Below are positions 35,595 to 54,647 of a DNA stretch of 64,000 bases, one piece after another. The DNA comes from Alphaproteobacteria bacterium. Lineage in GTDB: Bacteria > Pseudomonadota > Alphaproteobacteria > SHVR01. A model generated the notes under the pieces. That model saw only the letters and a list, made by a program, of their open reading frames with translations. It did no database searches and had not been told where the DNA came from. A program made the position numbers and the translations under genes. Numbering within the stretch: the first letter of the stretch is position 1; each line of letters opens with the position of its first letter. The stretch is from contig SHVR01000009.1 of assembly GCA_009694185.1 (NCBI GenBank), positions 1 to 64,000 of the forward strand, in the 5' to 3' direction.

Positions 35595-36194
35595 TCAGGC
35601 GGCCAACGCCCGCTCCAGAAAGTCCAACCGGTCCTGGCCCCACAATAACGTGTCGCCGGAGACATAGGTCGGGATGCCGAAGACGTCGCGCCGGATTGCC
35701 TCGTCGGTGTTCATCTCGAACTGTTCGCGCACGGCCTTGTCTTCCGAGGCGGCGAGCAGGATGTCGCCCGCATAGCCGTTTTCGTCGGCAATCGCCTGCA
35801 ACGTCTCGCTGTCGTTGATGTTGCGATCCTCGGCCCAGACGGCGCGGGGGAGTGCGAAGACCAGCGGCGCCGGGTCGGCGCCAAAGCGCTCCGCCGCGAT
35901 GACGAGGCGCGCCGCCCGGCTCTGGGCCACCGGGTAGTAGCGCGGCTTGTCGCTGATGGCGAGGCCGCGAAACTCGGCCCAGCGCCGCATCTCCAGCTTG
36001 CCGTATTTGCGGTGCGAGTCGGAGCGCTCCGGCGGATCGTCGCTGCCCAAGAGGCGCAGCATCATCTCCTTCAAATCGACCGGGTGGTAGCGAATGGTGG
36101 CGCCGGCATTCAGCGCGATCTCTTCGAGCCGCTTCTGGCCGAGATAGACCCAGGGCGAGTTGAGGCAGAAATAATAGTCGATGGTCTTGCTCAT
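35595..36194 (-). CDS. 2-hydroxychromene-2-carboxylate isomerase-like (DsbA/kappa-GST fold)
   Basis: 199 residues. [20 protein letters not shown] carries the Ser of the glutathione site in place of the DsbA CXXC, with a helical insertion in the middle and a C-terminal [26 protein letters not shown]. These enzymes use glutathione to isomerise aromatic ring-cleavage intermediates; many members have other roles. The start overlaps the FAD gene stop by 4 bases, so the two are cotranslated. Confidence 0.87.
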
Positions 36195-37318
36195 GGGCCT
36201 TGTCCTTTTTCGAACGATCGGTTGAGGCGCCGCGCCACTTCCTCGGCGATGGCGGGCGAGGCGGTGAGCCCCGGCGACTCGATGCCGAAGAGATTGATCA
36301 GGCCGGGGACCCCGTGCGCTTCCGGCCCCTGGATCATGAAGTCGGGCTGCGGTTCGCCGGGGCCGTGGATCTTGGGTCGGATGCCGGCATAGGCGGGCAC
36401 CAGGGCGTTGTCCGCCAAGTCCGGATAGTAGGTGCGCACCGCCGCGTAGAACTTGTCGGCGCGCGCCGGGTCGACTTCATAATCGAGCGCCTCCACCCAT
36501 TCCAGGTCGGGGCCGAACTTGCACTGGCCGCCCATGTCGAGGGTCACATGCACGCCCAGCACCGCCGGCCCGGGCATGGGGTAAACCAGGCAGCCGAATG
36601 GCTGCCGACCGCTCATGGAAAAATAGCTGCCCTTGGCCAGGTGGCGAGGCGGAATCGAGGCGGGGCGCAGTCCCTTGATGGCGGTCGCTATGTTCTGGGC
36701 GTGGAGACCGGCGCTATTGATCACGGTTCGAGCGACGAGCGACATGGGCTCGGCCCCGCCGACATCGAGGCGGATGCCGTCGTCCCGGACGGCGCCGCCT
36801 TGGACCGGGCTCAAGAAGGCGAGCATGGCGCCATGGGCCTCGGCGTCGCCCTGATAGGCGAGCATCAGCAGGTGGCTGTCGATGATGCCGGTCGAGGGTG
36901 AGAGCATCGCGGCGACGCAGCGCACCGCCGGTTCCATGCCGCTTACGTCTTGGGAACTAAGCATGCGGAGGTCGCCAACGCCGCTCTTCGCCGCCTGCTC
37001 TTTCAAGGCATGGAGCTTTGCGATCTCATCCCAGGCGCAGGCGACGATCAATTTACCGCAGTTGCGGTGCGGCACACCATGTTCGGCACAGTAATCATAG
37101 AGAAATCGCTTGCCCTCGACACAAGCCCGTGCCTTGAAACTACCGGGGGGATAATAGATACCGGCATGAATGACCTCGCTATTGCGCGAACTGGTCTCGG
37201 TACCGATCGTGTCCGCCGCCTCGAGTACGATCACCTCGCGCCCGGCGATCGCGAGGCGGCGGGCCACCGCCAACCCGACGACGCCCGCCCCGATAACGAT
37301 GCAATCTACCCTCTCCAT
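36191..37318 (-). CDS. FAD-dependent oxidoreductase, L-2-hydroxyglutarate oxidase-like
   Basis: 375 residues from ATG at 37318 (a TTG 12 bases earlier is less likely). [19 protein letters not shown] is the FAD dinucleotide loop, [21 protein letters not shown] the DAO-family LhgO hallmark, and the C-terminal [30 protein letters not shown] the flavin-contact region (split by Gly). It oxidises a 2-hydroxy acid or amine. It is the first gene of a two-gene minus-strand unit. Confidence 0.87.
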
Positions 37319-37485
37319 TGCGCCACCCAAGACCCTGTGTCCCGTTCGCGAGCTTGCCAGTGGCTCAATCTGCGGACAGCGACCGGGGCGGTCAACCCGC
37401 TCGGATCGCTCGGATCACATGGAAGTGACGGCCGCTTACCCGATGACGGGTTGAGCGCGTCCCCCGCAATCGGCGATGATGGAGC

Positions 37486-41239: not shown

Positions 41240-41532
41240 TTCCCTAAAACCCTTTTTGTCTTTGCGACGAGCCGGTAGGCCGACGGGGCAATCCAGAGAT
41301 CGGCGGATTTATACTAAGCCTCGATGAGCTTGACTCATCGAGGCTTGGCCGGCGCGACCACGCCGCGCCGCCGATGCGGCGACAGCCAAGCGCGCGGAGC
41401 TCGCGCCCGGCGTTTGAGGGCGTCTCGATGATCGGTTTCGATCATCGAGACCTGGTATTACGCCATTTTTCTGGATCGCCACGGACGCTGCGGGTCCTCG
41501 CGAAGACGATTGGGAGGGTTTTTCAGCGGCCT
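41240..41532 (+). repeat. Foldback repeat, copy 2 (split by an insertion)
   Basis: The left part (TTTTTGTCTTTGCGACGA to GGATTTA at 41311) and right part (CGCCATTTTTCTGGATCGCC to TTTTTCAGCGGCCT at 41532) align with the intact copy at 17326-17474, including the right terminal repeat. They are separated by the 146-base element at 41312-41457. The left terminus has diverged. The right end lies 15 bases beyond the dgdA-like stop codon on the opposite strand. Confidence 0.7.
41312..41457. mobile_element. 146-base MITE-like element inserted in the foldback repeat
   Basis: The ends are inverted repeats (TACTAAGCCTCGATGA against the reverse complement of TCATCGAGACCTGGTA, 13 of 16 matching). Each end carries a perfect 13-base hairpin: 41316-41328 with 41334-41346, and 41422-41434 with 41439-41451. 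TTA flanks both sides (41309-41311 and 41458-41460), consistent with a 3-base target duplication, and the intact repeat has a single TTA there. No coding capacity, so it would need a transposase in trans. Confidence 0.7.
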
Positions 41533-41547
41533 GCTACGGGTCGGCGG

Positions 41548-42858
41548 TCACCCCGTCAACTCGCCCAGCGCGCGGTCGATGATGTCGAGCCCCTGGTCCA
41601 TCTCGGCGCGGGTCACGGTCAAGGGCGGGGCGAGCTTCCAGACCGTGCCGCTGGCCGGGTCGCGGGCGGCACCCGAGAGCGTCGTTTGCAGGCCCAGCTC
41701 GAAGCAGCGGCGCACGAGGTTGGCGCCAAGCGCCGGGTCGGCCGTCTTGCTCGCCCGGTCGCGCACCAGCTCGACGCCGACCAGAAGCCCGAGGCCGCGC
41801 ACATCGCCGATCGCCTCATAGCGCTGCTGGAAGCCGCGCAAGCTGGCCATGAAATAGGCGCCATCCTGCTTGGCTTTCTCGACCAGCCGCTCGGCCTCGA
41901 TCAGCTTCAGGATGCGGAGTGCGACGCGCGCCGGATAGGGGTCGGAGACATGGGAGGTGTAGAAGTGGAAGCCCTTGGCGTGCACCGACTCTTCGATGGC
42001 GGCACTCGTCACCGTGGCGGCAAGGGGGAGACCGCCGCCGAGCGACTTGGAGAGGGTCAAGATGTCCGGTGTCACAGCCATCTGCTCGAAGCAGAACATG
42101 GAGCCCAGCCGGCCGAAGGCCGTCTGCGCCTCGTCGAAGATCAACAAGAGGCCGCGTTTCTCGCAATGCGCCCTGAGGCGTTGCATATAGCCCTCCGGCG
42201 GCACGACGATGCCGCCCGCCGCCAGCACCGGCTCGCAGATCACCGCCGCGTAGGCGCCAACCGATTGCATGTCGGCCATCTCGAAGCCGACATCGAGGCA
42301 GGTGGAATCGCAAACGCCGGCGCAGTGACGGATCGGACAGCGATAGGCATTGGGCGGCGGCAAGGCCATGGTGCCGGGCATGGTCGGGCCATAGCCCTTG
42401 CGCGCACCCGCATAGGTGCTGGCGTTGGAGCCGGCGGTCATGCCATGCCAGGCATTGCCCATGGCGATCACCTCGAAGCCGCCGGTCTGGAGCTTGGCGA
42501 TGCGAATGGCCGCCTCGTTGGACTCGCTGCCCGTCGAGAGAAACATGGCCTTTTGCAGATTGGGCGGTAACAGGCGGGCGAGGTCGACGGCGAGCTCGAC
42601 CACGGCGGGCGACAGCATGTTGGAATAGAGATGCAGCGGCTCGGCCATGGCTTGGCGCATGGCCGCCAGCACGTCGGGGTGACTATGGCCGACCGTGGCG
42701 CACATCTGCCCCGAGGCAAAGTCGAGGATCGCGCGCCCATCGGCGTCATAGACATAAGCGCCCTCGGCGCGGGTGATCATGGCCGGCAGGAAGCCCTTGC
42801 TGTAGCGCATGATATGCTGAGCCACATCGTCGCTCCAGCGGCCGAAGGGATCGCTCAT
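41548..42858 (-). CDS. Class III PLP enzyme, 2,2-dialkylglycine decarboxylase-like
   Basis: 436 residues. ILDFASGQMCATVGHSHPDV, STGSESNEAAIRIAKL, GNAWHGMT, FDEAQTAFGRLG and TLSKSLGGGLPLAA with Schiff-base Lys271. The closest family I recognise is dialkylglycine decarboxylase: Gln51, Trp137 and Lys271 match its key residues, but the carboxylate-binding Arg near the C-terminus is Lys408 (WKLAPPLTV). A four-Cys loop lies at 174-187. It could be a transaminase or decarboxylating transaminase. The start overlaps hyuB by 4 bases. Confidence 0.8.
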   Translation of the reverse strand: MSDPFGRWSDDVAQHIMRYSKGFLPAMITRAEGAYVYDADGRAILDFASGQMCATVGHSHPDVLAAMRQAMAEPLHLYSNMLSPAVVELAVDLARLLPPNLQKAMFLSTGSESNEAAIRIAKLQTGGFEVIAMGNAWHGMTAGSNASTYAGARKGYGPTMPGTMALPPPNAYRCPIRHCAGVCDSTCLDVGFEMADMQSVGAYAAVICEPVLAAGGIVVPPEGYMQRLRAHCEKRGLLLIFDEAQTAFGRLGSMFCFEQMAVTPDILTLSKSLGGGLPLAATVTSAAIEESVHAKGFHFYTSHVSDPYPARVALRILKLIEAERLVEKAKQDGAYFMASLRGFQQRYEAIGDVRGLGLLVGVELVRDRASKTADPALGANLVRRCFELGLQTTLSGAARDPASGTVWKLAPPLTVTRAEMDQGLDIIDRALGELTG

Positions 42859-44630
42859 CGCCCGGCTCCTGGCGCCATGGTGGCAGTCTTCTTGCGAGCG
42901 GCCGTCTTGGCGGCGGCGGGGCGTTTCGCGGCCGTCTTCGGCTTGGACTTGGCCGTGCGGCGAACCACCGTTCCCTGGCGCGGATCGACGGTCACGCCAT
43001 AGTCGCCGAGCGCCCCCTTGACGGTGACGAACCCGTTCTCGACATCGGCCAGCACGGCGGCGGGTGCCCGGCGCGCGGGCGGGCCAAAGCCGCCGCCGCC
43101 CGCCTCGCGGATGGTGATCCGCGCACCCGGAGGCAATTCCACGCGCGCCTTGGCGTTGACCGGCTTGCCATCGACGGAATGGGCGCGGAGCCGGCCCTCG
43201 CCGCCGCCGAACATGCCACGCGCCGGAAAGCGGGTGCGGCTACCCATGCCGAGCATGGTCATCAAACTGCCGCTGGTATTGCGCAGCACCACTTCCTGGC
43301 CGAGGCCGCCGCGCTGCTTGCCGGGGCCGCCGGAATCCGGCATCAGATGCTTGGTTTCGATAGTCATGCCGGTGATGGTCTCCCAGATCTCGACGGGCAC
43401 CACCGCCATGTTGGAGGGGTGCGGCGTGGTGGACGCGCCGTCGATGCCGTCGAGGGCGCCATAGCCGCCGGCCGCGAAATAGATGGTCGAGACACCGCGC
43501 CCATTGGGATGACGGCCCTGGAAGGTCACCAAATTCATCATGCCCGATTCTGCCTGTACGCGATCCGGGGCGGCCTTGGCAAGGGCGCCATAGACGAGCG
43601 GTGTGACGAAATGGCCCATGGCATGGCGGCCGCCGGTGGCGAAGGGCGACTGGGCGTTGAGGATGCAACCCGCCGGCGCCGAGACGCTAATGGGCGCCAC
43701 CATGCCGGCATTGTTGGGGAGTGTCGGCAGGGTCAGAGTCTTCACCGAATAGAGCGCCATGGCGCGGGCATAGCAGAAGGGTACGTTGACGCCGGCGCGC
43801 ACACAAGGCCCGGTGCCGTCGAAATCGACCGCGACACTGTCGCGCTTCACGTCGACCCGGCAGACGAAGCGGATCGGCCCGTCGAAACCCTCCAGATCGA
43901 TCGAGTTGCGATAGGTGCCGGGCTTGAGGGTGCCGATTTTCTCGCGCATGGCCCGTTCCGACTGCTCGCGGATGGCGCGCGAGAGGGGCATCAGGTCGTC
44001 GAAGCCATATTCCGCCATGAACTCCAGCACCTGCCGCCCGCCCACTTCATTGCAGGCGATGTTGGCCATGATGTCGCCCACCACCTGTTCCGGCACCCTG
44101 ACATTGGTGCGGATGATATCGATCAAGCCCTCATTCAGCTTGCCGGCCTCGACCAGCTTGCAGATCGGGAAGCGAAATCCCTCCTGATAGATCTCGGCCG
44201 CCGCCGAGCCGAAGCCGATGCCGCCCACGTCCGGCAGATGGGTGATGCTCATGGTGTAGGCGACGATGCGGCCATTGAGGAACACGGGCCGCATCATGGT
44301 GATGTCGTAGAGATGGCCGGTGCCGAGCCAGGGATCGTTGGTGACGATCACGTCGCCGGGCGCGAGGGTCGCGGCCGGGAAGCGGTCCAGCATGTGGCGC
44401 GCCGTCACCGGCGCGCTGCCGATAAAGATCGGCACGCTCATAGTGCCCTGGGCGATCGAGTTCGCCTCCGCGTCGAGGACGACACAAGAGAGGTCGTAGC
44501 TTTCGGAGACAATGGTCGAGAACGACGTGCGCACCAACGTCGATACGATCTCGTCGGTCAGCGAGATCAGCCGGTCCCAGAGGATACCGAGGCTGACCGC
44601 GTCGAATTCCTGGCGTTTCATGCCGTCCAT
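42855..44630 (-). CDS. hyuB: Hydantoinase/oxoprolinase subunit B
   Basis: 591 residues from ATG at 44630 (ATG 44621 also possible). SYDLSCVVLDAEANSIAQG, PGDVIVTNDPWLGTGHLYD, GGIGFGSAAAEIYQEG and GGPGKQRGGLGQEVVL are HyuB signatures. With HyuA it forms an ATP-dependent amide or imide hydrolase or a related carboxylase. The last 35 residues (AKSKPKTAAKRPAAAKTAARKK) resemble a histone H1 tail and are absent from ordinary HyuB. It starts 19 bases after hyuA ends. Confidence 0.9.
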   Translation of the reverse strand: MDGMKRQEFDAVSLGILWDRLISLTDEIVSTLVRTSFSTIVSESYDLSCVVLDAEANSIAQGTMSVPIFIGSAPVTARHMLDRFPAATLAPGDVIVTNDPWLGTGHLYDITMMRPVFLNGRIVAYTMSITHLPDVGGIGFGSAAAEIYQEGFRFPICKLVEAGKLNEGLIDIIRTNVRVPEQVVGDIMANIACNEVGGRQVLEFMAEYGFDDLMPLSRAIREQSERAMREKIGTLKPGTYRNSIDLEGFDGPIRFVCRVDVKRDSVAVDFDGTGPCVRAGVNVPFCYARAMALYSVKTLTLPTLPNNAGMVAPISVSAPAGCILNAQSPFATGGRHAMGHFVTPLVYGALAKAAPDRVQAESGMMNLVTFQGRHPNGRGVSTIYFAAGGYGALDGIDGASTTPHPSNMAVVPVEIWETITGMTIETKHLMPDSGGPGKQRGGLGQEVVLRNTSGSLMTMLGMGSRTRFPARGMFGGGEGRLRAHSVDGKPVNAKARVELPPGARITIREAGGGGFGPPARRAPAAVLADVENGFVTVKGALGDYGVTVDPRQGTVVRRTAKSKPKTAAKRPAAAKTAARKKTATMAPGAGR

Positions 44631-44649
44631 CTTATTCACCGGTCCGCTG

Positions 44650-46740
44650 TCAGTTTGCCAATTCCGCCACCAGATTGTAGCGCTCGTCCACCGTCGCCCG
44701 ATCGCCCGTGCCGATGAGGCAGGTGGATTCACGCTCCTCCACGATGGCGGGCCCGGTCAAGCTGGCGCCGGGCGCGAGCCCATAGCGGTCGAGGACCGGG
44801 ACATCCACATAGCCGGCGGGGCCCGGCAGGTAGATCGGCCGGCTCCCCTTGCGGGCACTCCGGGCATCGCCGGTCGGGATGGTACCCAAGCTGTAGCCAG
44901 CGGTAAAGTTCGGCGCGGGACCGGTCACCTCCACCTTCCAATTGATGATCTCGACCGGCTCCTCGATGAAGCTCACCAGATAGGTCTCGGCATAGCTTTC
45001 CGCGAAGAGGCGCGGCAGATCGCAGAAGAGTGCCGCCAAATCGTCGGTCCGGGGCAGTGTCAACTCGATGTCGTGGTTCTGGCCCTGATAACGCATGTCG
45101 AGGCGAATAGTCATGGCTATATCCGGCGTGCCGACTCCGGCCCGCTTCAGGAAACCCGACGCCTCGTCGCCGAGCCGGCCGAGTTGCTCGGCGAACGCGC
45201 CCGCCGTCAGATCGTCCACATAGACGCGCTTCGAATGCGCCACTTCGAACGAGAGCGGGCTGACCAACAGCCCCAAGGCGGACATGACGCCGGCGCCCAC
45301 CGGAAAGACCACCCGCGGGATCTTCAATTTGCGGGCGATCGCCATGGCATGCACCGGTCCCGAGCCGCCAAAGGCGACCATGGTGGCACCGCGATAATCG
45401 AAGCCGCGTTCGGAGGCGTGGATACGGAAGGCGCGCGCCACGTCCTCGTTGATGACCTCGTGCATGCCCCAGGCGGCGCGCGCCAGGTTGAGGGATAGCG
45501 GTGTCGCGACAGTGGCGGCGATGGCGCGCTCGGCGGCGGTCTTGTCCAGGCGCATGCCGCCGCCGAGGAAGAAGCCGGCATCCAGATAGCCCAGGACGAG
45601 ATTGGCGTCGGTCAGCGTCGCGCCGGCGCCGCCCCGGCCATAGCAGGCGGGACCCGGGTCCGCGCCGGCACTCTTCGGCCCAACCCGAAGGAGGCCGCGA
45701 TCGTCCACCCCGGCGAGGCTGCCGCCGCCGGCGCCGATCTCGATCATGTCGATCACCGGAATGCGCACCGGCAGGCCACTGCCGCGCTTGAACTCATGCA
45801 CCCGCGCCACTTCCATCATGTATTTCTTGAGCGGTGCTCCGGCCCGGATGAGTGCGCCCTTGGCCGTCGTGCCACCCATGTCGAAGGCCAGCAGATTGTC
45901 GATCTGGAGCGTGCGCCCGTGATAGGCGCTCATCAAGGCGCCCGCCGCCGGACCCGATTCGAGAGAGCGCACCGGAAAGCGCCGCGCCGTCTCGGTGGTC
46001 ACCGTGCCGCCGCTCGACGTCATGATGTCGATGCGTCCCGTGAACCCGAGTTGGGCCAACCCTTCTTCGAGGCGCTTCAGATAGCGGTCGAACATCGGCT
46101 GGGTGTAGGCGTTGACCGTGGTCGTCGTCCAGCGCTCGAACTCGCGCATATTGGGGAAAACGTCCGCCGAGGTGGAGACGTAAAGGTCGGGATGTTCCTT
46201 CAGGACCAGCTTCCGTATGGCCTGCTCATGGGCCGGGTTGGCATAGGCATGCAGCAGGCAGACGGCGAGCGCCTCGATCTTGGCCTTGCGGCGCAAGCCG
46301 GTGACGGCTTTCTGCACCGATGCCTTGTCAAGGCGGCGCGCGACCGTACCATCGCCGCGCACCCTCTCCACCACCTCGGCCCGGAGCCGGCGCGGCACCA
46401 GGGGGGCCGGAAAGCGCAGGCGCAGGTCGTAAAGGTCGTAGCGGCTCTCATAGCCCATATCGAGGATGTCGCGGAAGCCTTCGGTCACCAGCATGCCGGT
46501 GACCGCCCCCTTGCGCTCGATGACCAAATTGGTGACCAGGGTCGTGCCATGCACCACATCGCCGACCCGGTCGATCGGTACCGCATTCCGGGTGAGCAGG
46601 GCGCCAATGCCGTCGAGCACCGCCTCGGACGGGTCGCGGGGCGTGGTGAGCTGCTTGTGGATTGCCATGCGACCGCCCAGCGCATCAAACAGCGCGAAAT
46701 CGGTGAACGTGCCGCCAATATCAACGCCGATGCGGTACAT
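44650..46740 (-). CDS. hyuA: Hydantoinase/oxoprolinase subunit A
   Basis: 696 residues. The actin-like ATPase start YRIGVDIGGTFTDFALFD, GTTLVTNLVIERKGA, SGPAAGALMSAYHGR and DMGGTTAKGALI are hallmarks. HyuA binds and hydrolyses ATP to activate the cyclic amide or ketone substrate; relatives include N-methylhydantoinase, 5-oxoprolinase and acetone/acetophenone carboxylases, so the reaction is not fixed by sequence. It follows the binding-protein gene by 92 bases containing a strong hairpin. Confidence 0.92.
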   Translation of the reverse strand: MYRIGVDIGGTFTDFALFDALGGRMAIHKQLTTPRDPSEAVLDGIGALLTRNAVPIDRVGDVVHGTTLVTNLVIERKGAVTGMLVTEGFRDILDMGYESRYDLYDLRLRFPAPLVPRRLRAEVVERVRGDGTVARRLDKASVQKAVTGLRRKAKIEALAVCLLHAYANPAHEQAIRKLVLKEHPDLYVSTSADVFPNMREFERWTTTTVNAYTQPMFDRYLKRLEEGLAQLGFTGRIDIMTSSGGTVTTETARRFPVRSLESGPAAGALMSAYHGRTLQIDNLLAFDMGGTTAKGALIRAGAPLKKYMMEVARVHEFKRGSGLPVRIPVIDMIEIGAGGGSLAGVDDRGLLRVGPKSAGADPGPACYGRGGAGATLTDANLVLGYLDAGFFLGGGMRLDKTAAERAIAATVATPLSLNLARAAWGMHEVINEDVARAFRIHASERGFDYRGATMVAFGGSGPVHAMAIARKLKIPRVVFPVGAGVMSALGLLVSPLSFEVAHSKRVYVDDLTAGAFAEQLGRLGDEASGFLKRAGVGTPDIAMTIRLDMRYQGQNHDIELTLPRTDDLAALFCDLPRLFAESYAETYLVSFIEEPVEIINWKVEVTGPAPNFTAGYSLGTIPTGDARSARKGSRPIYLPGPAGYVDVPVLDRYGLAPGASLTGPAIVEERESTCLIGTGDRATVDERYNLVAELAN

Positions 46741-46780
46741 GCGGGACTGCCTGGAATGGGTGTCTTAGTCTTAGAAGAAT

Positions 46781-46806
46781 CCAGCCCCGGGCGACGCCGG
46801 GGCTGG
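46781..46806 (-). promoter_or_regulatory. Intercistronic hairpin between binding protein and hyuA
   Basis: A perfect 10-base stem (CCAGCCCCGG with CCGGGGCTGG) closes a 6-base loop. On the minus strand it is followed by ATTCTTCT, too weak for a full terminator. Such structures protect the 3' end of binding-protein mRNA and reduce readthrough, giving more binding protein than enzyme. Confidence 0.6.
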
Positions 46807-46832
46807 GGGATAGCGGTTCAGCGGCGCGGGGT

Positions 46833-47888
46833 TCAGTCGCCTTTGCCTTTGGCGTGTCGTTCGGCCGATTCCTGAATGAACTCGAAGGTCTTGCGGGCCG
46901 GCAGGCCCTTCGCCTCGAACTCGGCGACCCAGGCGTCCCAGACCGGCTTGGCAGCCTTTTCCTGGAACTCCTTGAGCTGGGCCGGGCTGATCACGATCTT
47001 CTCCAGGCCCTTCGCCTCGTAGATCGGGATCCACTTCTTGTCCTCGGCCTCGTAGGCATCGAACATGGCCTTGTAATAGCCGGCCTTGTTGTCGACCAGT
47101 AGCTGCTGATATTCCGCCGGCAGCTTGTTGAAGGCCTTGTCGCTGACCACCATCGTGTTGTGCACGGTGCCGATGATGATGCCCTGGGTGTACCATTTCG
47201 ACAGTTCATGCAGCTTGTAGACGCCGAAGCCGTAAGAAAACGGGAATGCCACCGCATGGAACACGCCGCGCTCGAGCGCCCCGTAGACCTCGGGTGCGGG
47301 GACCGACGTGGGAATGGCGCCCAATTGGCGCATGGCGTCGCCCGAACCGCCCAGCGCCCGCACCCGCAAGCCCTTATAATCGTCGAGGGTGCGCGGCGGC
47401 TTGCCCACGCCCATCAATTCATAGGGCGGTAGCGGAACGCCCACCAGGGCTTTGCCGTTCCAGCGCTTCAACTCGTCGATCAGCGGCTGGAACGTATAGG
47501 CGTCTTCCATGACCTTGGCGATCACCCGCGGCGATGGCAGGGGGAGGAACGGCATGTCGAGCGCCGTCATCAGCGGTGTCTTGCCCGGCGCGTAATTGTA
47601 GGCGGTGAAGGCCGCCTGGAAAGATTCGGCGAGGATGCCGTCCAGATGGTCCTTGGCGTCGGAAAGCTGCTCGTTATAGTGCAGGCGGATGGTGAACTTG
47701 CCGCCGGTCTTCTCCTCCACCAGCTTGGCATAGAACTCGTAGCCGCGGGTCACGGCGCGCGAAGGTCCGTAGATCGCCATGCGCCAGGTGATCTTTTCCT
47801 GCGCCTCCGCCGCGGCGGCGGCCAAGACCATCCCGGCGGCGGCGAACGCGCCCCACGCCAGGGCCTTGTTCATGGTTCCGAATGGCAT
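46833..47888 (-). CDS. TRAP-type solute-binding protein, second of a tandem pair
   Basis: 351 residues from ATG at 47888, with GAGGAGAG 10 bases upstream. Signal peptide 1-29 (LAWGAFAAAGMVLAAAAAEA). DctP-family body: AIYGPSRAVTRGYEFYAKLVEE, LHYNEQLSDAKD, DYKGLRVRALGGSGDAMRQLGA with the ligand-carboxylate Arg, and LSKWYTQG. It would capture an organic acid in the periplasm. No DctQ or DctM membrane subunit is in the window. Very similar to the preceding gene throughout. Confidence 0.9.
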   Translation of the reverse strand: MPFGTMNKALAWGAFAAAGMVLAAAAAEAQEKITWRMAIYGPSRAVTRGYEFYAKLVEEKTGGKFTIRLHYNEQLSDAKDHLDGILAESFQAAFTAYNYAPGKTPLMTALDMPFLPLPSPRVIAKVMEDAYTFQPLIDELKRWNGKALVGVPLPPYELMGVGKPPRTLDDYKGLRVRALGGSGDAMRQLGAIPTSVPAPEVYGALERGVFHAVAFPFSYGFGVYKLHELSKWYTQGIIIGTVHNTMVVSDKAFNKLPAEYQQLLVDNKAGYYKAMFDAYEAEDKKWIPIYEAKGLEKIVISPAQLKEFQEKAAKPVWDAWVAEFEAKGLPARKTFEFIQESAERHAKGKGD

Positions 47889-47931
47889 CGTTGTTCTCTC
47901 CTCGTCGGTTGTAGGAAGCGTGTGCGGCCGG

Positions 47932-48987
47932 TTACGAACCCTTGGAATATTTCGTGCCGGCGGCGAAGACGAAGTCGAATGTCTTGCGGCCCGGCAGGCC
48001 CTTCTGCTCCATCTCGGCGATCCACTTGTCCCACACCGGCTTGGCCGCCTTTTCCTGGAACTGAACCAGCATGTCGGGCGTAATGGTGATCCGCTCGAGC
48101 CCGACCTTCTCGAATATGGGAATCCATTTCCGGTCCTCGCTCTCATAGGCTTCGCGCAAGGCGATGTAATACTGCGCCTTGACGTCGATCATGAGCTGAC
48201 GGTACTCGGCCGGGAGCTTTTGGAACGCGGTATGGCTCAGGGTGAAGGCGTTATGGATGGTGCCGAGTTGCAGGCCGAAAGTGTACCACTTCGACACCTC
48301 ATGCAGTTTGTAGGACCCGAAAGTGTAGCTGAAGGGAAATGAAGCCGCCTGGAAGACGTTGCGCTCCAGAGCCGCGTAGACCTCGGGCGCCGGCACCGAG
48401 GTCGGGATGGCGCCGAGCGTTTTCATGGCCTCGCCGGAGCCGCCCACGGCGCGAACCCGCATGCCCTTCCAATCGTCGAGGGTGCGCGGCGGCTTGCCGG
48501 TGCCCATGAATTCATAAAGCGGCAGCGGCACGCCGACGATCGCATAGGCGTTCCAGCGGTCCAGTTCTTCCTTGGCCGGCGGGAATTGGTAGAAATCCTC
48601 CATGACGCGCGCGATGGCGTCGATGCCCTTCATCGGCAGATAAGGCAGATCGATCACACTGTTCAGCGGCGCCTTGCCCGGCGAATAACCGAAGGCCGTC
48701 AGCGAGCCTTGGAACGAGTCGACCTTGATGCCGTCGAGATGGTCCTTCGCGTCCGAGAGCTGCTCGTTATAGTGCAGGCGCAGGGTGAACTTGCCGGCGG
48801 TTTTTTCCTCGACATGCTTGGCCATGAACTCGATGCCCTTGGTCACGGCTCGAGGCGGCCCATAAATGGCGATGCGCCAGGCGATCTTCTCCTGCGCCTC
48901 GGCGATGGCCGCCGGGCCAAGGATGAGACTCAAAGCGAGCGCCAAAATCCCGCCGACTTCGGTCGCCGGCCGTGTCAAAAATTCCAT
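47932..48987 (-). CDS. TRAP-type solute-binding protein, first of a tandem pair
   Basis: 351 residues from ATG 48987. Signal peptide about 1-31 (GGILALALSLILGPAAIAEA). The mature part shares LHYNEQLSDAKDHLDGI, GKPPRTLDDWKG, RAVGGSGEAM and GAIPTSVPAPEVYAALER with its neighbour, so the two arose by duplication. It is the first gene of the minus-strand operon SBP-SBP-hyuA-hyuB-dgdA-like. The pair differ mainly in the distal pocket region, so they may bind related ligands. Confidence 0.9.
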   Translation of the reverse strand: MEFLTRPATEVGGILALALSLILGPAAIAEAQEKIAWRIAIYGPPRAVTKGIEFMAKHVEEKTAGKFTLRLHYNEQLSDAKDHLDGIKVDSFQGSLTAFGYSPGKAPLNSVIDLPYLPMKGIDAIARVMEDFYQFPPAKEELDRWNAYAIVGVPLPLYEFMGTGKPPRTLDDWKGMRVRAVGGSGEAMKTLGAIPTSVPAPEVYAALERNVFQAASFPFSYTFGSYKLHEVSKWYTFGLQLGTIHNAFTLSHTAFQKLPAEYRQLMIDVKAQYYIALREAYESEDRKWIPIFEKVGLERITITPDMLVQFQEKAAKPVWDKWIAEMEQKGLPGRKTFDFVFAAGTKYSKGS

Positions 48988-49776
48988 CGTCGCTTTGCCT
49001 CTTCAATCGCGCCCCTTGAGCGGGAGCCAGAAGTCGGCGGCAGATTAGCCGCGATAACCGGCGGCGTCGAGAATGGCGCCGCATGCGCTATAATGAAAAC
49101 AATAATCGGTAGGGATCGCCACAGGCCCCGGTATGGGCCGAGGCGAGGGCCTTTAAGCAATTGATATATAAACGTTTTGGCGCGCCTGACACGAGTGCGC
49201 GGCGGACCTGGAGTGGTTTCCCGAGTCGGAACCCCTGAGGGACGAACGGGCGGTGAGCGATGTATTTGGTAAATTTGAGTTTTGCCCCGCGACAGTTGCC
49301 CGTGGGCGTACCCAAGGGGCCATCGGAAAGTCGAATTTCCCGGCGCCGCTTGTTGTTGGGGCAGCCAGGACTACTTGTTCTTTACGGGCTCGTTAACGTT
49401 GACGGCCTATGTTTGGCATTGCTCTTGCACAGGTTTCGGTGACACCCGTTGTAGGAGCCAAGAACGGCCCGACCCGGAAAGGGCGGGCCTATGAGACACG
49501 GTTTGATGTGAGGTGCGCGTACGCGGTTGAGAGTTGGCAATCGATTGGCCCGTATGGGCCGAATTGTAGGTCGGTGGGCTGTTAGCCGCGACTTCGCCTC
49601 TGAGGCGGATACGCGAAAGCTAGAGGTAGATCGTCCATGTTGGCGATGTCCCATACCTTCCGGCAAACGCCGATCCCTCGGGACTCGACGCCAGAATGGC
49701 AGCGCCCCACGCCGCCCCATCCCCTTGTTGGCCAAAACCCGGAATTTTCGGCGACCGATCGACCGGAGGAACCCTC
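48988..49776. other. Long intergenic region before prkA
   Basis: Nearly 800 bases with no convincing protein gene; the short frames here resemble nothing. Features seen: TATAAT at 49089-49094; an AT-rich patch at about 49150-49172; hairpins GGCCC-CGGTAT-GGGCC (about 49124) and GGCCC-GTAT-GGGCC (about 49547); and a strong stem GGCCCG-A-CCC/GGG-CGGGCC near 49466-49489. It must hold the divergent promoters of the TRAP/hyu operon and prkA. A long 5' leader or small RNA ending at the terminator below is likely. Confidence 0.5.
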
Positions 49777-49809
49777 GCCGCGTGCGACGGTTTCCGTCGC
49801 GGCTTTTTT
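49777..49809 (+). terminator. Rho-independent terminator 27 bases before prkA
   Basis: Stem GCGACGG (49784-49790) with CCGTCGC (49794-49800), loop TTT, extended outward by GCC/GGC, followed by TTTTTT at 49804-49809. Only 27 bases separate it from the prkA ATG, so it must stop a leader transcript or a small RNA coming from the upstream region; prkA expression would need antitermination or a promoter within the terminator region. Confidence 0.8.
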
Positions 49810-49836
49810 CCCCCATTGCGAGAGCCAAGGTGTGTC

Positions 49837-51783
49837 ATGACGCAATCCGCGGATGTCTTTGATCTTTATGCGAACATCTTCGAGAGCCGCAAGCAGACGG
49901 AGCTCTCGCTTCGGGAATATCTGCGGCTCTGCCGCGACGAGCCCAAAACGTTCGCGACCGCGGCCGAGCGCATGGTCAGCGCCATTGGCGAGCCGGAGAT
50001 TGTCGACACGGCCCAGGATCCACAGCTCGGCCGCGTCTTCATGAATCGCTCGATCAAGCGCTATCCCACCTTTGCCGATTTCTACGGCATGGAGGAAACC
50101 ATCGAGCGCATCGTGGGTTTCTTCAAGCACGCGGCCCAGGGCCTCGAGGAGCGCAAGCAGATTCTCTATTTGCTCGGCCCGGTCGGCGGCGGCAAGTCGT
50201 CGCTCGCCGAACGGCTGAAGACGCTCATGGAGAAGCTGCCGATCTATGTGCTGAAGGCGGGCGATCATGTCAGCCCGGTCTTTGAGTCGCCCCTCGGTCT
50301 CTTCGATCCCGACCGCATGGGCCCGGTGCTGGAGGAAAAGTACCGCATTCCGGGGCGCTATCTGACCGGTCTCACATCGCCTTGGGCGATGAAGCGCATC
50401 CAGGAGTTCGACGGCGATCTGTCGCGGTTCTCGGTGGTCAAACTGTTTCCCTCGAAGCTCGACCAAATCGGTATCACCAAGACCGAGCCGGGCGACGACA
50501 ATAACCAGGACATCTCGTCCCTGGTCGGCAAGGTCGACATTCGCAAGCTCGAATTTTTCAGCCAGAACGATCCCGACGCCTATTCCTATAGCGGCGGCCT
50601 CAACCGCACGACCCAGGGCCTGCTCGAATTCGTCGAGATGTTCAAGGCACCGATCAAAATGCTGCACCCGCTGCTGACCGCGACCCAGGAAAGCAACTAT
50701 GTCGGCACCGAGAGCGTCGGCACCATCCCCTTCCAGGGCATCGTGCTGGCCCACTCGAACGAGGCCGAGTGGCAGAGCTTCAAGAACAACAAGAACAACG
50801 AGGCGTTTATCGATCGCATCTGCGTCGTCAAGGTGCCCTATTGCTTGCGCGCCAACGAGGAGCGCGAAATCTACACCAAATTGTTGCAGTCGAGCGACCT
50901 TTCGAGCGCGCCCTGCAGCCCGTCCACGCTCGATATGCTGGCCCAGTTCTGCGTCCTCTCCCGCCTCAAGGAGCACGAGAACTCCAATCTGTATTCCAAG
51001 ATGCGCGTCTATAATGGCGAGAACCTGAAGGACGTCGATCCGAAGGCGAAATCCATGCAGGAATATCGCGACGTCGCCGGCGTCGACGAGGGCATGACCG
51101 GCGCCTCGACCCGCTTCGCCTTCAAGGTGTTGTCGGAGACGTTCAATTTCGACAATGAGGAAGTGGCGGCCGATCCCGTCCACCTGATGTATGTCCTGGA
51201 GCAGTCAATTCGCCGCACCCAGTTTCCGGAGGCGACCGAGAAGCAGTATATCGACTTCATCAAGAGCGAACTGGCGCCGCGTTATGCCGAATTTATCGGC
51301 AACGAGATCCAGAAAGCCTATTTGGAGAGCTATGGCGATTACGGACAGAACCTGTTCGACCGCTATGTGGCGTATGCCGATGCCTGGGTCGAGGACCAGG
51401 ATTTCAAGGACCCGGATACCGGCCAGATGTTCGACCGCAAGATGCTCGACCAGGAGATGTCGAAGATCGAGAAGCCGGCCGGTATCGCCAATCCCAAGGA
51501 CTTCCGCAACGAGGTGGTGAAATTTTCGCTCCGGGCGCGGGCCGCCAACAACGGCAAGAACCCGTCCTGGACCTCCTACGAGAAGATCCGCGAAGTGATC
51601 GAAAAGCGGATGTTCTCCCAGGTCGAGGACCTGCTCCCCGTGATCAGCTTCACCAGCAAGCGCGACAAGGAGAGTGAGAAGAAACACTCCGAATTCGTCG
51701 CCCGCATGATGACCCGCAGCTACACGGCGCGCCAGACGCGCCGGCTGGTCGAATGGTACATGCGCGTCAACAAGGCCGGGTGA
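49837..51783 (+). CDS. prkA: PrkA (YeaG) AAA+ serine protein kinase
   Basis: 648 residues from ATG 49837; the frame extends 47 codons upstream through the terminator, which is unlikely to be translated. Walker A GPVGGGKSS at 114-122, PrkA N-terminal AAA domain to about 400, kinase-like C-domain after it (RTQFPEATEKQYIDFI; DQEMSKIEKPAGI). In E. coli yeaG-yeaH with ycgB respond to stress and starvation; in Bacillus PrkA affects sporulation. It heads the prkA-yeaH-spoVR unit. Confidence 0.95.
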   Translation: MTQSADVFDLYANIFESRKQTELSLREYLRLCRDEPKTFATAAERMVSAIGEPEIVDTAQDPQLGRVFMNRSIKRYPTFADFYGMEETIERIVGFFKHAAQGLEERKQILYLLGPVGGGKSSLAERLKTLMEKLPIYVLKAGDHVSPVFESPLGLFDPDRMGPVLEEKYRIPGRYLTGLTSPWAMKRIQEFDGDLSRFSVVKLFPSKLDQIGITKTEPGDDNNQDISSLVGKVDIRKLEFFSQNDPDAYSYSGGLNRTTQGLLEFVEMFKAPIKMLHPLLTATQESNYVGTESVGTIPFQGIVLAHSNEAEWQSFKNNKNNEAFIDRICVVKVPYCLRANEEREIYTKLLQSSDLSSAPCSPSTLDMLAQFCVLSRLKEHENSNLYSKMRVYNGENLKDVDPKAKSMQEYRDVAGVDEGMTGASTRFAFKVLSETFNFDNEEVAADPVHLMYVLEQSIRRTQFPEATEKQYIDFIKSELAPRYAEFIGNEIQKAYLESYGDYGQNLFDRYVAYADAWVEDQDFKDPDTGQMFDRKMLDQEMSKIEKPAGIANPKDFRNEVVKFSLRARAANNGKNPSWTSYEKIREVIEKRMFSQVEDLLPVISFTSKRDKESEKKHSEFVARMMTRSYTARQTRRLVEWYMRVNKAG

Positions 51784-51793
51784 GAAACGAACC

Positions 51794-53092
51794 ATGAACA
51801 TCGTCGACCGCCGGCCGAACCCCAAGGGCAAGAGCCACGCGAACCGGCAGCGCTTCATCCGCCTGGCGCGCGAGACGCTGAAGGAAGCGGTCGTGCGCTC
51901 GATCAAGGATCGGGCGCTCGGAGACGTCGACACCCGCGAGGTCGTCGATATCCCGGTCAAGCGGATCCAGGAGCCGCGCCTGCGCCATGCCGGCAAGGGT
52001 GGCAACCGCGAGCATGTGCTGCCCGGCAATCGCGAGTATGTCGAGGGCGACACGCTGCCGAAGCCCAAGTCGGCGGCCGGCAAGGGCGGCGGGCGCGAGG
52101 GCAGCCCGGACGGCGAAGGCGAAGACAGCTTCCAGTTCACCCTGAGCCGCGAGGAATATCTCGACATCCTGTTCGAGGAACTCGAGCTGCCGAACCTCGC
52201 CAAGACCTATCTGAAAGAGACACCCCGTATGCGCACCACGCGGGCGGGCTTCACCATGTCCGGGGCGCCTTCGAATTTGAACCTGGTGCGGACCATGCGC
52301 AACAGCCTGGCGCGCCGGATCGCCCTCAGCCGGCCGAAACCCGCCGCCCTCGCCGATCTCGAGGCCGCGATCGTGGACGCCACCGGTGACGCCGAAGGTG
52401 CCGCCCGCCTCGCCGACCTCATCGCCCGGCGCGACCGGCTGGTCCGCCGCGCCAAGGCGATCGCCTTCATCGATCCGCTCGACTTGCGCTACAACCGCTT
52501 CGAGCCCACGCCGCAGCCGAACGCCCAGGCCGTGATGTTCTGCCTGATGGATGTGTCGGGCTCGATGAGCGAATATATGAAGGACCTGGCGAAGCGGTTC
52601 TTCTTGCTGCTGCACCTCTTCCTCGACCGAAAATACGAGCATGTTGAAGTGGTTTTCATCCGGCATACGTCGCGGGCACAGGAGGTCGACGAGGAGACGT
52701 TCTTCCGCAGCCAAGAGACCGGCGGTACCGTCGTCTCGACGGCGCTCGAAGAGATGCATCGCATCGTCGCCGAACGCTATCCGGTCGCGGAGTGGAACAT
52801 TTACGGCGCCCAGGCTTCCGACGGCGACAATTATTCGAGCGACAGCGAGACTTGCATCGAATTGCTGCGCAACCAGCTCCTTCCGCTCTGCCAATTCTTC
52901 GCCTATATCGAAGTGCTCGACGAGCGCGAGATCGGCGTCTTCCGCTCGGAAGCCAATGCCAGCGTGCTGTGGCGCGACTACAAGACCATCGTCGACCGTT
53001 TCGGGAATTTCGCGATGACCCGGGTGTTCTCCAAGGCCGACATTTTCCCGGTCTTCCACCAGCTCTTCGCCAAATCGCGCCATGCCGCGTGA
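51794..53092 (+). CDS. yeaH: YeaH/DUF444 protein with VWA domain
   Basis: 432 residues, 10 bases after prkA. N-terminal NIVDRRPNPKGKSHANRQRF, a Gly/Lys-rich stretch at 90-112, then a von Willebrand A-like domain with the metal site DVSGSMSEYMKDLAKRFF (Asp253, Ser255, Ser257). It is the usual partner of PrkA and SpoVR; its molecular role is not established. The 3' end overlaps spoVR by 11 bases. Confidence 0.94.
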   Translation: MNIVDRRPNPKGKSHANRQRFIRLARETLKEAVVRSIKDRALGDVDTREVVDIPVKRIQEPRLRHAGKGGNREHVLPGNREYVEGDTLPKPKSAAGKGGGREGSPDGEGEDSFQFTLSREEYLDILFEELELPNLAKTYLKETPRMRTTRAGFTMSGAPSNLNLVRTMRNSLARRIALSRPKPAALADLEAAIVDATGDAEGAARLADLIARRDRLVRRAKAIAFIDPLDLRYNRFEPTPQPNAQAVMFCLMDVSGSMSEYMKDLAKRFFLLLHLFLDRKYEHVEVVFIRHTSRAQEVDEETFFRSQETGGTVVSTALEEMHRIVAERYPVAEWNIYGAQASDGDNYSSDSETCIELLRNQLLPLCQFFAYIEVLDEREIGVFRSEANASVLWRDYKTIVDRFGNFAMTRVFSKADIFPVFHQLFAKSRHAA

Positions 53093-54647
53093 ACCGTCGC
53101 GCACCCGCGCCAAGAGCGCCGAGGCCAAGCTGCTTTATACCAGCGGCGAGTGGACGTTCGAGACTCTGAAGGCGACCTACGACGCCATCGAGGCGATCGC
53201 GGTGGGCGAGCTCGGCCTCGACCCCTATGCCAACCAAATCGAGCTCATCAACTCCGAGCAGATGCTGGACGCCTATTCCTCGATTGGCATGCCGGTCTTC
53301 TATCACCACTGGTCGTTCGGCAAGAAATTTGCCCGTGACGAGAAATCGTACCGCAAGGGCTATAGCGGCTTGGCTTACGAGATCGTCATCAACTCGAATC
53401 CCTGCATCTCCTACATCATGGAAGAAAACACCATGACCATGCAGGCCCTGGTCATGGCGCACGCGGCGTTCGGTCACAATCATTTCTTCAAGAACAACTA
53501 CCTGTTCCGGGAATGGACCGACGCCGAAGGCATCCTGGATTATCTGAGCTTCGCCCGGAGTTTCGTGATGCGCGCCGAGGAGCAGCATGGCATCGCCCAG
53601 GTCGAGCGCGTGCTCGACGCCGGACATGCCTTGATGGATCAAGGCGTCAACCGCTATGGCCGCCGGCCGCGCCTCAGCCTGGCGAACGAACGCCGGCGCG
53701 CCGAATCCCGGCGCGAGTACCGGCGCGAGACCTATAACGACCTCTGGCGCACGCTGCCCGCATCGACATCGCCGGCGGCAACGCCCGACGAAGGTGCCGA
53801 GATCGACCAAGGTACCCATCGCCTCGGCCTGCCCGAGGAAAACCTGCTCTATTTCATCGAGAAGTTTTCGCCGCGCCTGAAAGGCTGGGAGCGCGAGCTC
53901 CTGCGCATCGTTCGCAACATCGGTCAGTATTTCTATCCGCAGAAACAAACCAAGATGATGAACGAGGGCTGCGCCACCTACGTTCACTACCGGATCATGA
54001 ACCGGCTCTACGACACCGGCCGGATCGGCGAGGGGGCGATGCTGGAGTTCCTTGCCAGTCACGCGAACGTCGTTTTCCAACCGGCCTTCGACGATCCGCG
54101 CTATTCCGGGATCAACCCCTATGCGCTCGGCTTCGCCATGATGTGCGATATCGAGCGTGTCGTGACCGAGCCGGGCGACGAGGATCGAGCCTTCCTGCCG
54201 GAGATCGCCGGTACGGGCGACGTGATGGGCACGCTCCGGACCGCCTGGGCCAACTACCGCGACGATTCCTTCGTCGCCCAGTATCTGAGCCCGCATTTGA
54301 TGCGCAAGCTTCGGCTTTTTCAACTCGTCGACCGGCCCGACACGCCGGACTATCGCGTCGAGGCTATCCATGACGAACGCGGCTATCGGCGGCTGCGGCG
54401 TGCGTTGGCGCGGCAATACGATCCGGGATTGCGCGATCCCAACATCCAGGTGAGCGACGTCGATATGGCCGGAAGCCGCCGCCTCGTGCTGACCCATCGC
54501 ATGAACAATGCCGTGCCGCTCGCCGAGGCCGACGCGCGGGCGGTGCTCGCTTATGTCGCGGATCTGTGGGGGTATGACGTGGCGTTGCGCGGCGTCGGCG
54601 ATGACGACGGAATCGCGTATACCTACGAAGCTGCGGTGCCAGCTTGA
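53082..54647 (+). CDS. SpoVR family protein (YcgB)
   Basis: 521 residues, starting 11 bases inside yeaH. QIELINSEQMLDAYSSIGMP, YHHWSFGKKFARDE, YEIVINSNPCISYIMEENT, MAHAAFGHNHFFKNN and EGCATYVHY are SpoVR signatures, including conserved His and Glu residues that could bind a metal. In Bacillus it acts in spore cortex formation; in non-spore-formers it belongs to the PrkA stress unit. A perfect hairpin CAGGCGAA-T-TTCGCCTG follows the stop at 54661-54677. Confidence 0.94.
   Translation: MPREPSRTRAKSAEAKLLYTSGEWTFETLKATYDAIEAIAVGELGLDPYANQIELINSEQMLDAYSSIGMPVFYHHWSFGKKFARDEKSYRKGYSGLAYEIVINSNPCISYIMEENTMTMQALVMAHAAFGHNHFFKNNYLFREWTDAEGILDYLSFARSFVMRAEEQHGIAQVERVLDAGHALMDQGVNRYGRRPRLSLANERRRAESRREYRRETYNDLWRTLPASTSPAATPDEGAEIDQGTHRLGLPEENLLYFIEKFSPRLKGWERELLRIVRNIGQYFYPQKQTKMMNEGCATYVHYRIMNRLYDTGRIGEGAMLEFLASHANVVFQPAFDDPRYSGINPYALGFAMMCDIERVVTEPGDEDRAFLPEIAGTGDVMGTLRTAWANYRDDSFVAQYLSPHLMRKLRLFQLVDRPDTPDYRVEAIHDERGYRRLRRALARQYDPGLRDPNIQVSDVDMAGSRRLVLTHRMNNAVPLAEADARAVLAYVADLWGYDVALRGVGDDDGIAYTYEAAVPA

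Follow-up and report, generated by a model that had tools for sequence, protein, structure and literature searches.

The locus lies at positions 48987-41548 on the minus strand of the window, i.e. the whole stretch of 64,000 nucleotides that was analysed, itself part of contig C18 of an alphaproteobacterial assembly of 2.81 Mb (78 contigs, 77% complete). It comprises five intact genes, transcribed in the order DctP1, DctP2, HyuA, HyuB and class III PLP enzyme, the first two being tandem genes for DctP-type binding proteins. Their coordinates and Pfam matches bore out the original prediction of five same-strand genes from these families, with an overlap or short gaps between the enzyme genes. 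The features are as follows:

47932-48987, minus strand: DctP1, TRAP DctP-family binding protein, 351 aa (Pfam DctP, 8e-35)
46833-47888, minus strand: DctP2, tandem paralogue of DctP1, 351 aa (Pfam DctP, 2.5e-36)
46781-46806, minus strand: stem-loop between DctP2 and HyuA, 10 pairs, GC-rich, with a partial T tail
44650-46740, minus strand: HyuA, ATP-binding alpha subunit, 696 aa (Pfam Hydant_A_N, Hydantoinase_A and Hydant_A_C)
42855-44630, minus strand: HyuB, metal-binding beta subunit, about 590 aa (Pfam Hydantoinase_B, 8e-142)
41548-42858, minus strand: class III PLP enzyme resembling dialkylglycine decarboxylase (DGD), 436 aa (Pfam Aminotran_3, 4e-82)
41451-41422 and 41346-41316, minus strand: two near-perfect stem-loops 3' of the PLP enzyme gene (fold z = -6.3 over 41300-41550)

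DctP1 and DctP2 are separated by 43 bp, and DctP2, which has a ribosome-binding site of its own, is separated from HyuA by 92 bp. The HyuA-HyuB spacing is about 20-28 bp, with HyuB beginning from an ATG (44630 or 44621) and not from the GTG at 44732, and the HyuB and PLP enzyme genes share a 4-base ATGA overlap. The stem-loop at 46806-46781 is possibly an attenuator or a processing stem, through which binding proteins and enzymes may differ in amount, the former possibly being in excess; it carries little weight, since the total of terminator-like stem-loops is at chance level. The pair at 41451-41316 is likely the end of the transcript or a REP-like element. Upstream, a divergent PrkA-type gene starts at about 49833 (plus strand), and downstream the next gene is 667 bp away, beyond the stem-loops, so that the block stands alone and no dctQM pair, which would have refuted the original prediction, belongs to its transcript. 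An operon that reads from its sequence as PrkA kinase-YeaH-SpoVR type runs divergently from the HyuAB operon at 49696-54647 (plus strand). Elsewhere in the window, at 35595-37330 (minus strand), a gene for an L-2-hydroxyglutarate-oxidase-like FAD enzyme is followed, with a 4-base overlap, by one for a DsbA-fold protein.

Among 190 related genomes, the HyuA-HyuB-PLP enzyme triple was found in the same order in two, G181 (80, 79 and 81% identity, respectively) and G066 (68, 65 and 65%), each from a different family and with different gene neighbours; 385 sampled genomes of the class yielded zero additional copies. Neither triple adjoins DctP genes, hence the link to DctP is not obligatory, and it is HyuA-HyuB-PLP enzyme that forms the conserved unit. 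The co-occurrence search put forward with the original prediction thus recovered the enzyme core in other genomes, and the full five-gene set with two DctPs at this locus alone. An independent pairing of DGD and Hyu genes occurs in G183 (L074, 4985-9992): there, HyuA and HyuB of a distant lineage (28% identity) are fused into one gene, with which a DGD-family gene shares an 8-bp overlap. The association of DctP with HyuAB also recurs: the nearest relative of DctP1 and DctP2 (contig C13 of G094, 63% identity) adjoins its own class III PLP enzyme, HyuA and HyuB, whose lineages differ from those of the present operon. Our literature search found no paper tying dialkylglycine decarboxylase to a hydantoinase operon.

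DctP1 and DctP2 are 66% identical to each other and are sisters in the tree (support 100/99). Both display the features of TRAP DctP proteins, namely the DctP domain, a signal peptide (of Sec type in DctP1, ..AIAEAQEK) and the conserved ligand Arg. This Arg, known in the family to hold the carboxylate of the ligand, is conserved in all aligned DctP rows. Queried against named bacterial genomes, DctP1 gave a single match, a distant one from Chloroflexi. Pyroglutamate is a substrate of 5-oxoprolinase, a relative of HyuAB. Two Bordetella DctPs have been crystallised with this carboxylated lactam (PMC5812351) which, together with the conserved Arg and the C13 neighbourhood of G094, favours a carboxylated cyclic amide as the ligand of DctP1 and DctP2.

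The genome encodes 11 DctP genes, together with eight DctQ and eight DctM sets, of which one DctM is divided between two matches. No DctQ or DctM lies beside the operon, as had been predicted, all eight sets being located on other contigs. Seven of these have an adjoining P gene; the eighth, on contig C16, has none, and is bordered by a tRNA-Lys just upstream and by opposite-strand genes downstream. Four P genes, all of one subfamily, are without QM: DctP1, DctP2, C59:46777 (50% identical to DctP1) and C38:4208 (34%). The C38 gene (L010, 4199-5233) has no obvious adjoining catabolic operon, and a transporter-like gene lies next upstream on the same strand. Relatives of DctP1 in 12 further genomes stand in P-Q-M operons with a C16-type DctM (50-70% identical), a range to be compared with the 29-35% identity between the C16 DctM and the other DctMs of the present genome; identities alone were used, because long branches in the DctM tree make deep joins unsafe. 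DctP1-type genes and C16-type DctM are one to one in G181 and G066, and in G094 (99% complete) there is a single C16-type DctM at 55% for eight DctP1-type genes, the next DctM being at 41%; P-to-QM counts in 12 genomes covered the DctP1-type subfamily only. The DctQM pair of C16 most likely serves DctP1 and DctP2, which supports the predicted capture-and-degrade logic with a permease encoded elsewhere and gives it a specific candidate.

With an assembly that is 77% complete, permease sharing is something we infer, and a dedicated QM could be absent from the assembly. The corresponding explanation, in which a QM dedicated to DctP1 and DctP2 sits in the unassembled part and sharing is an artefact, draws on this incompleteness and on the division into 78 contigs, but we deem it unlikely: the operon does not reach an end of its contig and no QM accompanies it, the same excess of DctPs over matching DctM is found in the near-complete G094, and the C16 pair lacks a P gene within assembled sequence, a tRNA standing in its place. 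The failed exchange of SiaP between species argues against loose pairing of P with QM, and shared permeases have been proposed, unproven, for the unrelated TTT family (PMC5812351). For TRAP transporters of the DctP type, no report of a shared permease was found in a literature search that covered few subscription journals. The present case resembles the orphan Bug/TctC binding proteins of the TTT family in having several binding proteins per membrane unit and orphan genes near catabolic genes; it differs in that TRAP DctP is an unrelated family and in that the permease type can be named here from neighbouring genomes.

The best solved relative of the PLP enzyme is the DGD of B. cepacia, DgdA (1d7r; 441 bits, the next family scoring 215 bits), for which the substrate contacts have been listed as Q52, W138, M141, S215, K272 and R406 (PMC10169451). 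The enzyme of the operon keeps Q52, W138, M141 and the PLP lysine K272, whereas S215 is replaced by Ala and R406 by Lys. When 24 family members were aligned with B. cepacia DGD, R406K was present in only 3 of the 25 proteins, all from HyuA-HyuB operons (this one, G181 and G066), and the same three share S214A, S215A, N394T and an insert of 3-4 residues before position 404. R406 is kept in the 22 others, and S215 is variable in some of them. As the three Hyu-linked enzymes are mutually related, these substitutions count as one evolutionary change and not three. Judging from the alignment, the R406K set marks an operon-specific subclass and cautions against presuming 2-aminoisobutyrate as the substrate; the changes at the carboxylate site (R406K, S215A) suggest another. 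The predicted DGD-like label hence holds for the nearest solved relative, DgdA, and not for the two changed contacts, one of which is kept in the rest of the family. The enzyme further bears a C-x4-C-x3-C-x3-C motif, CPIRHCAGVCDSTC, which is absent from B. cepacia DGD, occurs in 15 of the 25 aligned DGD-family proteins (also L067, L068, L069-L074, L155-L160) and may be a site for a metal or an iron-sulfur cluster in a PLP enzyme of class III. The closest PLP enzyme among plasmid records, from Leptolyngbya sp. BL0902 (61%), keeps R406 and has no Hyu neighbour.

The kinship with B. cepacia DGD and the four kept contacts would fit a pathway for dialkylhydantoins and 2-aminoisobutyrate, in which HyuAB opens a 5,5-dialkylhydantoin, a carbamoylase encoded elsewhere releases the dialkylglycine, and a true DGD forms ketone, CO2 and alanine. 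We regard this as improbable, because R406 and S215 are both altered in the Hyu-linked copies, a carbamoylase gene is absent from all three operons, and a plain dialkylhydantoin would offer the DctP Arg no carboxylate.

HyuA keeps the phosphate and adenosine motifs GVDIGGTFTD, DMGGT and GADPGP. The metal ligands of caprolactamase CapB are Asp41, His99, Asp102 and His124 (PMC8453981), and all four are aligned and kept in HyuB. The pair thereby displays the sequence features of the ATP-dependent hydantoinase/oxoprolinase/caprolactamase group, i.e. the ATP motifs in HyuA and the Asp-His-Asp-His site in HyuB. Beside the phosphorylation site, HyuA carries a Lys (DMGGTTAK) at the position of CapA Asp302, a position occupied by Asp in all four aligned solved relatives, hydrolases and carboxylases included, and by Lys in 20/20 clade members read. 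Cyclic-amide hydrolases score 390 and 342 bits against HyuA and ketone carboxylases 254 and 212, the corresponding values for HyuB being 199 and 193 versus 70 and 69. On these scores, the two subunits fall clearly closer to the hydrolases N-methylhydantoinase and caprolactamase than to the carboxylases of acetone and acetophenone. The nearest NCBIfam models are CapA for HyuA (483.7 bits) and CapB for HyuB (228 bits), both below the equivalog cut-off of 1000 bits. N-methylhydantoinase and 5-oxoprolinase have the same subunit make-up, ATP motifs and metal ligands; unlike them, the HyuA described here belongs to the DMGGTTAK subfamily, and the operon has no carbamoylase or racemase gene.

This HyuAB clade is present in 23 of the 385 sampled genomes of the class. 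It adjoins a beta-eliminating lyase in three (G055, G086, G121), a class V aminotransferase in five (G193, G230, G286, G028, G014), in several cases together with RidA, and, as read from sequence alone, amidases in two (G195, G080); other members have neighbours outside this PLP/amidase theme. PLP enzymes and amidases are the neighbours expected if the HyuAB product is an amino acid, and the pattern suggests a general theme across the clade in which ring opening releases an amino acid for later use by a PLP enzyme, the order of the steps being one we infer. Repeated proximity to RidA and to PLP enzymes of other kinds was also seen in clade members L131-L148.

The same observations bear on the reverse order, in which the DGD-like enzyme would make a ketone and HyuAB would then carboxylate it with ATP and bicarbonate. 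Ketones are products of DGD, the acetone and acetophenone carboxylases are relatives of HyuAB, and the Lys of HyuA matches the position of Lys281 in the bicarbonate-activating Apc alpha' subunit. We nonetheless rate such a carboxylase slightly below even the dialkylhydantoin pathway, given that both subunits score nearer to the hydrolases, that HyuB is some 590 aa long versus 776 aa for the alpha subunit of acetone carboxylase, that no gamma subunit gene lies beside HyuAB, and that the same clade adjoins non-decarboxylating PLP enzymes and amidases. The gamma subunit (PF08882 in acetone carboxylase) gave no match genome-wide, and likewise none in the control genomes. Least probable of all is that DctP1 and DctP2 are sensors, as the original prediction had allowed, or periplasmic buffers, in either case without a transport role: a signalling role is suspected for orphan binding proteins in the TTT family (PMC5812351), but no histidine kinase, regulator or chemoreceptor gene adjoins the pair, their relatives in 12 genomes belong to ordinary P-Q-M operons, and the genome itself contains an orphan QM of the matching type.

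The reading that we favour, with confidence evenly balanced for and against, is that the operon serves the catabolism of a carboxylated cyclic amide of the lactam, imide or hydantoin type, using a permease encoded elsewhere, ring opening by HyuAB and a PLP step. DctP1 and DctP2, duplicated in the lineage, would bind the substrate in the periplasm and pass it to a DctQM encoded elsewhere, most likely the C16 pair. In the cytoplasm, the amide would be phosphorylated with ATP in HyuA and its ring opened at the metal site of HyuB, and the freed amino acid would be decarboxylated and/or transaminated by the DGD-like enzyme. What the sequences establish directly is which genes are present and in what order, the motifs kept, the syntenic core and, within this assembly, that the DctPs and the C16 QM are both orphans; the partnership, the chemistry, the succession of steps and the substrate class are proposals.

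The closest described logic is that of caprolactam degradation in Pseudomonas jessenii, where CapAB, of the HyuAB family, opens the ring with ATP before the class III aminotransferase PjAT acts (PMC6061476, PMC8453981). In view of this combination of CapAB with a class III aminotransferase, the claim that no described pathway has the present combination was too strong; the original observation is real and was correctly read, and its interpretation was partly overdone. The two systems share ATP-dependent ring opening by a HyuAB-family enzyme followed by a class III PLP enzyme. They differ in the CapA and CapB scores, far below cut-off here, in the replacement of CapA Asp302 by Lys, in the omega-aminotransferase and ABC binding proteins of the caprolactam cluster versus a DGD-like enzyme and TRAP-type proteins, and in the semialdehyde dehydrogenase, absent from the present operon. 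By the measure of these low scores and of a PLP enzyme from another subfamily, the operon resembles the caprolactam pathway but is not a member of it.

TRAP transporters are described as having one binding protein per permease, with the failed cross-species exchange as support. A more tentative proposal, to which we give somewhat less than even credence, is a hub-and-spoke arrangement in which one DctQM would serve several DctPs, each with its own catabolic operon, and in which the Lys-type HyuAB and the R406K DGD-like enzyme would form an uncharacterised cyclic-amide pathway. With one orphan permease that can be named in this genome, four orphan DctPs to match it, and a ratio of eight to one in a second genome, permease sharing is directly testable. 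The substitutions in the PLP enzyme and the Lys subfamily of HyuA mean that neither "hydantoinase" nor "DGD" gives the substrate. Since the operon joins two subfamilies with altered active sites, the ligand of its DctPs would help to assign substrates across the HyuAB clade.
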